64,000 bases of DNA from an uncultured Lachnospiraceae bacterium (GTDB lineage Bacteria; Bacillota; Clostridia; Lachnospirales; Lachnospiraceae). The notes below the pieces were generated by a model. The model was not told the DNA's origin. It saw only the letters and a program-made list of their open reading frames with translations, and did no database searches. The translations under genes and the position numbers were made by a program. The stretch is from contig CAMFDJ010000008.1 in NCBI GenBank assembly GCA_945949085.1, positions 1 through 64,000 of the forward strand, in the 5' to 3' direction. Each line of letters starts with the position of its first letter. Within the stretch, counting starts at the first letter, position 1. Positions 2,533-48,540 of the stretch are shown here, piece after piece.

Positions 2533-3024
2533 TTACAGGAGATTTACCTGCCCATCCAGCACTGCTTCCACCAGCTTGTCTCCCCTGTAAGAAAGCTTCA
2601 AGGAAAAGAAAGGTGCATCCTCACCAAGCAGCCGAAAGAATATTTTATCTCCCTCCCAGATGGGAAGCTCATATACTTTTTCCTTTGGCACCCACTCGAG
2701 AATCCCTTCCGGGCAGTCCGGCAGATTTTCCCCATCCGCTTTTGCAATCTGCGCCGTATACAGATGCATGTATTCACTTGGATAATCATCCGACCTGAAT
2801 GTGACAATCCCCCGAAAGTGCCAGCTTGCAAGGGTCAATCCTGTTTCCTCCATAACCTCACGCAGCAGGCATTCCTCCGGGCTTTCTCCCTCCTTGAAAT
2901 GACCGCCCACACCAATCCATTTGTCGTGGTTGATATCGTTTTTCTTGGACACGCGGTGCATCATCAGATAGGCGTCATCCTTCTCAATATAGCAAAGCGT
3001 TGTCAGGTGTTTGATGTCAGGCAT
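2533..3024 (-). CDS. NUDIX hydrolase (8-oxo-dGTP diphosphatase-like)
   Basis: Nudix box GGHFKEGESPEECLLREVMEETGL. Confidence 0.9.
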   Translation of the reverse strand: MPDIKHLTTLCYIEKDDAYLMMHRVSKKNDINHDKWIGVGGHFKEGESPEECLLREVMEETGLTLASWHFRGIVTFRSDDYPSEYMHLYTAQIAKADGENLPDCPEGILEWVPKEKVYELPIWEGDKIFFRLLGEDAPFFSLKLSYRGDKLVEAVLDGQVNLL

Positions 3025-3246
3025 GGCAATCCTCCTGTTTTTCTTTTGATTATTGGAACATCATCGGAACAATTTCAAAACGCAGAAAATAGCTACAGAA
3101 ATGTACTATCATCTGTATAGTTTATATGCGTTTCGCCACATGTATTATACAGTATTTTTCGCTCTTATGCCACCAAATTCCTGCTGCCTGCACGTTCCGT
3201 CAAGTGTATCCTCCGCGGGCTCTTAATTTTGTCCCTCTTAAAAAAG

Positions 3247-3400
3247 TGTAACTATTCAGAACCACATTCGCAAAATCGCATCTGCGATGCTTTCCTTTTG
3301 CTCATGTGGTTACTTCGCCCTATAAATTTCCGCTATCCTGTCCATTCATGCAAGCATGATGTCCCGACCTGCGGAAATTTACATAGCTCTGAATAGTCAC
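3247..3400. repeat. Dispersed intergenic repeat family B, copy 1 (~154 bp, terminal inverted repeats, two internal hairpins)
   Basis: Ends TGTAACTATTCAGA...TCTGAATAGTCAC; inverted homolog at 19814-19965. Confidence 0.8.
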
Positions 3401-3473
3401 AAAAAAATAATGGAAAACGATACCCTATGGTCATCATTTTCCATCATCTTTTTCGCCTTATTTTTTTGCCGTC

Positions 3474-3728
3474 TCAACAGTATTGGTGTGCGTATTTTTC
3501 TTTTGTCGCCATGCCACCTCTGATGTGGCGCTCTGACTTATTGACATCGAGCACTTTTCTGGCCTCCGCCGCCAGTGCATGGTTGATCGTCGGCAGTCGC
3601 TCCGTCACATCTTTATGTACCGTACTCTTGCTGACCCCGAACTGTTTTGCCGCCATTCTCACTGTGGCATTGTGTTCTACGATATAGTTGGCAATGCCGA
3701 TGGCACGCTCTTCAATATATTCCTTCAA
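3474..3728 (-). CDS. spoIIID: Sporulation transcriptional regulator SpoIIID
   Basis: MKEYIEERAIGIANYIVEHNATVRMAAKQFGVSKSTVHKDVTERL. Confidence 0.93.
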   Translation of the reverse strand: MKEYIEERAIGIANYIVEHNATVRMAAKQFGVSKSTVHKDVTERLPTINHALAAEARKVLDVNKSERHIRGGMATKEKYAHQYC

Positions 3729-19813: not shown

Positions 19814-19965
19814 TGTAACTATTCAGAGCCATGTAAATTTTTAAAATATTGGGCGTCATGCTTGCATGAACGAACAATGTTTTGAAAATTTATAGGGCGA
19901 AGTAACCACATGAGCAAAAGGAAAGCCTCGCAGAGGCGATTTTGCGAATGGGGTTCTGGATTCCA
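19814..19965. repeat. Dispersed intergenic repeat family B, copy 2 (inverted relative to copy 1)
   Basis: Reverse complement shares CGCAAAATCGC.TCTGCGA.GCTTTCCTTTTGCTCATGTGGTTACTTCGCCCTATAAATTT with copy 1. Confidence 0.8.
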
Positions 19966-20039
19966 TCGAGAAGAAGCGAAAGCGGATTCGAGATGGTTTC
20001 ACATTTTATCATACATTTAAACGAGAATCGGAGCCTATC

Positions 20040-48274: not shown

Positions 48275-48540
48275 ATATAAAAACCCCGTCCTGTAATAGG
48301 ACGGGGTAATATCCGCTAACCACCTGTTACTGCATACTCGCTGTATTCTATAAAACAACTTCATATGCGCCTGCCTTAACGCGACAGAATCGGCAGCACC
48401 TACTTTGCAAATCACATTTGTTTTCAGCCTGCAACTCGGAAGTGATCTTCGGCAAATCGCTACTCATATCCGGCTCGCACCCTCCCGGACTCGCTTTGAC
48501 TTTCGTCAATATGCTTACTGTCTTCGTCAACGTTTTTCGT
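48275..48540 (-). promoter_or_regulatory. T-box leader of ileS with terminator
   Basis: GAGTCCGGGAGGGTGCGAGCCGGATATGAGTAG, candidate specifier ATC in GAAGATCACTTCCGAG, T-box-like CAGGTGGTTAGCGGATATT, terminator CCCCGTCCT...AGGACGGGGTTTTT. Confidence 0.85.

Follow-up and report, generated by a model that had tools for sequence, protein, structure and literature searches.

The RNA family Clostridiales-1 (RF01699) was listed without a cis-regulatory role in the original paper (Weinberg et al. 2010, PMC2864571), and it is annotated in Rfam as an sRNA. It has a three-way-junction plan with a GCUUGC hairpin tip, a CG linker, and a CAUGAGCA..UGCGAAUG core. Insertion sequences of the ISBst12 group of IS66 encode a single-ORF IS66 transposase without tnpA/tnpB. 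A fresh insertion of one of them, ISDge4, has the ends GTGACTACTCAGCA and GTAACTGCTCAGCA and an 8-bp repeat, CCTCGATG (PMC12898284). Structured MITE-like repeats are already known elsewhere. In the Bacillus cereus group, bcr1–bcr3 are intergenic, high-copy, and MITE-like, and bcr10 and bcr18 are repeats with a conserved RNA fold that are transcribed (PMC3446304, PMC6542083). REP/BIME and RAYT-mobilised repeats are also short, palindromic, and intergenic. RAYT repeats are not known to have target duplications.

The element described here is 153 bp long and lies in the genome of an uncultured Lachnospiraceae bacterium, within the window, which is the whole stretch of 64,000 nucleotides that was analysed. 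It resembles the bcr repeats by description, but these belong to another host group and show TTTAT-associated insertion. It shares the traits of REP/BIME and RAYT-mobilised repeats named above and differs from the RAYT repeats in its 8-bp duplications and DDE-type ends. The plan, tip, linker, and core of Clostridiales-1 are all found in it; canonical Clostridiales-1, however, has TGATG/CATC ends, repeats of about 6 bp, and extra 3' hairpins, whereas the window element has GTAAC/GTTAC ends and 8-bp duplications and is without these hairpins. Its ends are nearly identical to those of ISBst12-group IS66 elements such as ISDge4 (GTAACTGCTCAGCA), which also have the 8-bp direct repeat, but the ends are all that it has in common with them, and it has no transposase. 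The kind of element is thus known; the novelty lies in finding that an orphan Rfam RNA belongs to this kind and has more than one set of ends. The literature was covered in part, which is no proof of novelty, and no paper on a mobile Clostridiales-1 or on an IS66-ended MITE of Lachnospiraceae was found. The best explanation, with a probability of about 80%, is that the element is an ISBst12/IS66-type MITE with a selected Clostridiales-1-type RNA domain, moved in trans by an IS66-type transposase.

The first-pass annotation had described terminal inverted repeats around two hairpins at this place, and its coordinates and sequence description were confirmed. The inverted repeats hold, except that the outermost T (3247) and A (3401) are part of the flanking 8-bp target duplications (Table 1). 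The paired changes that it quoted for copy 2 (GCCTC-TGC-GAGGC and an altered second stem) were found as described at 19815-19966, while the link of this structure to Clostridiales-1 in Rfam had escaped it. The RNA strand of the element is the window minus strand. Its neighbours across the intergenic gap are spoIIID (3474-3728) on one side and a NUDIX gene (2533-3024) on the other; both genes are encoded on the minus strand, and the element has the same orientation as these neighbours. It is inserted directly in the T-tract of a putative spoIIID terminator. An empty site at spoIIID was not obtained; the nearest relative has spoIIID on one contig and the NUDIX gene on another, and synteny is lost there. 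The computed folding energy of the element is -68.3 kcal/mol for the minus strand (z = -10.6 relative to 200 dinucleotide-shuffled sequences) and -48.5 kcal/mol for the plus strand (z = -7.8); the fold is far beyond chance. The core hairpin has conserved tandem G-A pairs (CAUGAGCA / UGCGAAUG) and a conserved asymmetric GGAAA/GA loop. In the long hairpin, pairing is kept between copies despite widely differing sequence.

Table 1. Coordinates of the element and related features in the window (R1, RNA covariance model from 13 divergent copies; A1 and A2, alignments described in the text).
Feature	Position	Strand	Remarks
Whole MITE	3248..3400	-	R1 158.9 bits, E 1.5e-33; RF01699 end to end 34.7 bits
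Left target-site duplication AAAAAAGT	3240..3247		7/8 identical to right flank; duplication length of family exactly 8 bp
Right target-site duplication AAAAAAAT	3401..3408		inside minus-strand T-tract of apparent spoIIID terminator
Terminal inverted repeat GTAACTATTCAGA, 13 bp	3248..3260	+	18 bases GTAACTATTCAGAACCAC same as an end of the L349 insertion sequence
Second terminal inverted repeat GTGACTATTCAGA (minus-strand reading)	3388..3400	-	one mismatch
Core hairpin CCACATGAGCAAAAGGAAAGC..GCGATTTTGCGAATGTGG	3261..3310	-	motif common to A1 and the RF01699 alignment
Variable long hairpin, tip contains GCTTGC	about 3317..3387	-	helices 2 and 3 of A1, helices 2-4 of A2
Second copy	19815..19966	+	R1 151.4 bits; RF01699 43.2 bits at 19827-19998
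Third, distant Clostridiales-1-like element, other ends GCGGTGC/GCACCGC	52791..52953	+	R1 32.7 bits, E 1.9e-5; RF01699 29.7 bits

In this draft genome, BLASTN gave nine matches at E<1e-16; six near-full copies and several partial ones were found. Most of the full copies have an 8-bp direct repeat just outside GTAAC..GTTAC, such as ATGATATT/ATGATATT and GAAAATAC/GAAAATAC. One end of the second window copy is degraded, with GATGGAATCC where the terminal repeat is expected. Copies similar to the third window element are found elsewhere in the genome (L055 and L057). An intergenic repeat with TTCCTCGCTACATCTCGCC at two other loci (L017, G000:C1:150860; L018, G000:C2:148991) has the hairpin tip CATTCATGCAAGCATGATG in common with the element. 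A T-box leader match was also seen on the minus strand at window 48294-48539, below the gathering score (56.7 vs 93 bits).

Kinship with Clostridiales-1 was found in both directions of search. The minus strand of the window element matched RF01699 over positions 1-166 of 166 (E 1.8e-6), with the consensus fold and conserved motifs present end to end, although its score and that of copy 2 (34.7 and 43.2 bits) lie under the gathering cut-off of 48 bits. A scan of the whole window with RF01699 matched each of the three elements of this kind, at 3253-3395, 19827-19998, and 52801-52953. RF01699 was also compared with 20 loci that carry related elements. Three of them (L132, L135, and L136), whose GTAAC ends are those of the window element, exceeded the gathering score (49.2-54.8 bits), and most of the others matched below it. 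In the reverse search, R1 matched RF01699 loci with a best E of 3.3e-7. The letters in common include the GCUUGC tip, the CG linker, and CAUGAGCA..UGCGAAUG with a middle able to form tandem G-A pairs. By these model scores, the window element is Clostridiales-1-like and not a formal member of the family.

The similarity extends well beyond the two loci from which it was first noticed. Of 397 genomes from the same family, 150 had R1 matches (E<=0.001), as did 137 of 334 genera; at most seven candidates were scored per genome, which makes the copy numbers per genome minimum values. When named genomes were scanned for an exact pattern, the matches listed included Lachnospiraceae and Clostridia, such as Coprococcus catus, Fusicatenibacter saccharivorans, Hominifimenecus, Eubacterium ramulus, and Ruminococcus faecis. 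In ten copy-rich genomes, the terminal inverted repeat GTAACTRTTCAGA occurred up to 71 times per genome, against 0-1 for the reversed control pattern. No match to the element was found in the plasmid records searched, and matches in phage records were only to unannotated fecal phage fragments. Two copies (L197:503-644 and L201:7487-7629) are within contigs of a viral collection; these contigs are probably prophages, and the element may be spread by phages.

Several variants of the element were also observed. At L181 (512-675, G315:C37), L183, and L184, paired elements have just one 7-8-bp target copy between them, arranged at L181 as element-AAACTGTA-element-AAACTGTA, which would fit tandem insertion or recombination between target duplications. 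At L130 (G224:C26, positions 452-160 of the minus strand), the core hairpin and terminal repeat, which make up the 3' half of the element, occur three times in tandem in 67-bp steps. In further elements (L138-L140, L142-L145 and L147, L155-L158), the ends and long hairpin are the same and the second hairpin is swapped (CGCCACACCGA..GGAGGTTGG; CCACATCGAGATG..AATCGAGATGG). The core hairpin therefore seems to be an exchangeable module.

Covariation was counted, in place of an R-scape analysis, in A1, a MAFFT alignment of 13 sequences, and in A2, a model-fitted alignment of 86 distinct sequences that is biased towards the model and contains a few low-scoring hits from the opposite strand. In A1, 31 of 52 pairs had changed on both sides, and in A2, 50 of 52. 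The covariation scores were 0.362 against 0.132 (sd 0.012) when shuffled for A1, 0.488 against 0.133 (sd 0.005) for A2, and at most 0.074 in slid controls; they take no account of relatedness and are not probabilities. Covariation is thus present on many copies. Within the structure, G-U outnumbered A-C by 86 to 26 in dereplicated A2 and by 22 to 7 in A1, and in the terminal repeats the two were even (31 and 28). Since the RNA model may bias the counts in A2, a strand-symmetric stem search was performed as a control. The asymmetry was weaker in it, with 127 G-T against 87 A-C cells and 33 elements leaning to G-T against 9 to A-C. The RNA strand folds better in 77 of 89 dereplicated elements, and one G-U pair on this strand is near-fixed (51 of 55). 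The G-U excess, the symmetric search, and the fold preference point to selection that acts on one strand. The proposal in the first-pass annotation that the structure is under selection is borne out by the covariation and by the strand-specific G-U excess inside the element, and a three-way-junction RNA under selection on the window minus strand, as a putative transcript, is supported.

Two other origins of the paired changes have to be weighed. The element could be a palindromic repeat at the DNA level (REP/BIME-like), in which cruciform or hairpin DNA is selected, e.g., as a protein-binding or nucleoid site, and the RNA is not. The strand-symmetric mismatches of the terminal repeats, the folding of both strands, and the random gene orientation agree with this, but the interior favours G-U over A-C on the one strand that also folds better in most elements, and the conserved G-A pairs and the near-fixed G-U pair are on the RNA strand, which makes such an origin unlikely. 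The paired changes could also be mutational, with hairpin-templated correction (quasipalindrome repair) or repeated inverted-DNA recombination copying the changes of one arm to the other. Hairpin-templated repair is known for quasipalindromes, and the long hairpin varies wildly yet is almost perfectly paired (helices 2-4 of A2). However, templated correction should erase G-U pairs and internal loops, whereas the G-U pair is near-fixed, the G-A tandem and the GGAAA/GA loop are conserved, and the excess of G-U over A-C is found only in the interior. This origin is considered just as improbable as the previous one, and selection on the RNA strand is the preferred reading of the fold.

The elements are short and multi-copy, and they are bounded by terminal inverted repeats. 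Perfect 8-bp flanking repeats were present in 67 of 188 distinct TIR-paired elements, which came from many genomes, and a further 22, like the window copy, matched at 7 of 8 positions. When right flanks were shuffled among elements, 0.22% were perfect over 8 bp, i.e., about 0.4 were expected against the 67 observed. Perfect 7-bp repeats were found in only three of the 188 elements and 9-bp repeats in none, so the length of the duplication is exactly eight. Target sites are A+T-rich (84% vs 69% in nearby flanks), with A favoured at the first position and T at the last, and identical element sequences are found at different sites with different flanks. By simple ORF calling, long ORFs were seldom interrupted (5 of 59 elements), and there was no orientation bias to the neighbouring genes, with 25 elements co-oriented with both and 20 opposed to both. 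The lack of bias is unlike a cis-acting mRNA element. Judged from flanks and insertion sites, these results show the family to be mobile, in the manner of a MITE, i.e., a non-autonomous transposable element.

Apart from 52 short elements (81-154 bp), a single long element (L219:645-2440) was recovered when TIR pairs bordered by matching 8-bp sequences were sought. The long one is a 1,796-bp insertion sequence with the same ends as the MITE and a perfect 8-bp duplication, CTATGGCA, on both sides. Its IS66 transposase gene is broken by a frameshift, and the ORFs of >=80 aa in its interior are the two fragments of this transposase plus two short ORFs that overlap these fragments. At L349, an intact, single 481-aa IS66 transposase lies beside GTAACTATTCAGAACCACCC and matches NF033517 (264 bits, cut-off 180) and PF03050; 18 bases of this end are identical to the end of the window element. 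Both L349 and L219 fit the ISBst12 group in having a single-ORF IS66 transposase without tnpA/tnpB. At L350, both ends are present (GTATCTGTTCAGAACCCCC and GTTCTGAACAGTTAC), and further ends are found at L351-L354. No second end was found at L349, and the flanks of L350 did not match each other. Since the ends are common to three such elements (L219, L349, and L350) and agree with the published ends and 8-bp repeat of ISDge4, ISBst12-group IS66 is the probable source of the MITE ends and of the transposase. The mobility suggested by the first-pass annotation is thereby upheld, with exact 8-bp target duplications and ISBst12-group ends. Selection and mobility, the two halves of its reading, both hold, but separately, as mobility rests on the end sequences and the fold is not its basis.

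Other candidate partners were examined. Among typical IS66 elements at 30 loci, those ends that could be recognised are GTAAGCG, and GTAACTATTCAG was in none of them. IS256/Mutator elements (Transposase_mut), for which duplications of 8-9 bp are expected, have different ends at five loci. Long TIR pairs in two genomes (G026 and G315; L178-L181 and L187) have unlike flanks, and inspection of their ORFs by eye revealed no transposase; each such pair is read as two separate copies.

Relatives of the L219-type transposase are rare, being present in 4 of the 397 family genomes. Across these 397, the ISBst12-type transposase was not found in the window genome, where no insertion sequence of this group is assembled, or in copy-rich genomes such as G026 and G232, and G026 had no IS66 match at 1e-30. 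That the partner is unseen in copy-rich hosts is the main gap, and draft assemblies lose repeated insertion sequences. A different transposase, not of the IS66/ISBst12 type, could therefore move an element whose ends are similar by chance, as the lack of a detected partner in most copy-rich genomes might suggest. This is slightly less probable again than the two origins discussed for the paired changes, because MITE and insertion sequence share 18 identical end bases and the same 8-bp duplication, and IS256 ends gave no match. A structured RNA that stays in place, as a cis-regulator, a terminator, or an sRNA gene, and is present in many copies without mobility would fit the strong covariation, the Rfam annotation, and the co-oriented intergenic window copy, but it is very improbable and may be regarded as refuted for the family by the exact 8-bp target duplications, with identical copies at unrelated sites and no orientation preference against it as well.

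Canonical Clostridiales-1 was found in 96 of 200 family genomes, often with at least 13 copies per genome. These highly repeated copies (L356-L424 and L047) have ends of the form TGAT(G/A)CC... and ...ACATC. Identical 6-bp flanks at that boundary were present in 22 of 41 copies, against at most 7 in 1,000 shuffles; the rule for the ends was drawn up after part of the loci had been viewed, so the count is descriptive, and copies fetched later obey the rule. The repeat length is less sharp than in the GTAAC type because a few copies fit repeats of 7-9 bp. On these boundaries, canonical Clostridiales-1 also looks mobile. Its ends and repeats differ from those of the GTAAC type, and therefore the same RNA core lies within two kinds of ends. 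At least two kinds of transposon end thus seem to carry a known orphan RNA. It can be proposed, tentatively and at a little under even odds, that Clostridiales-1 is an RNA module carried as cargo by at least two unrelated end systems across Lachnospiraceae and is no fixed sRNA gene, with the fold kept for an element function, e.g., shielding host transcripts from insertion or control of mobility.

The preferred account of a MITE moved in trans would work as follows. A full-length element that is gained and lost again would provide an IS66-type DDE transposase in trans, and this transposase would recognise the GTAACTATTCAGA ends. The 153-bp unit would then be moved or copied into A+T-rich intergenic DNA, leaving an 8-bp duplication. 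Between the ends, it would carry the three-way-junction Clostridiales-1-type RNA domain on the window minus strand. The sequence of this domain would drift, and selection acting on the RNA, or on that one strand, would preserve its fold. The fold may serve the element or the host, e.g., if read-through transcripts tolerate the insertion.

If this is true, the abundance in gut Lachnospiraceae of Clostridiales-1, a family described in 2010 without a function, would be explained by carriage on transposable elements. It would also be a caution that mobile elements can be caught by comparative RNA discovery, and it raises the question of why short transposons with different ends keep one RNA fold under selection. 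The element would serve as a marker for past ISBst12/IS66 activity and for insertions near genes that probably vary between strains of common gut bacteria.
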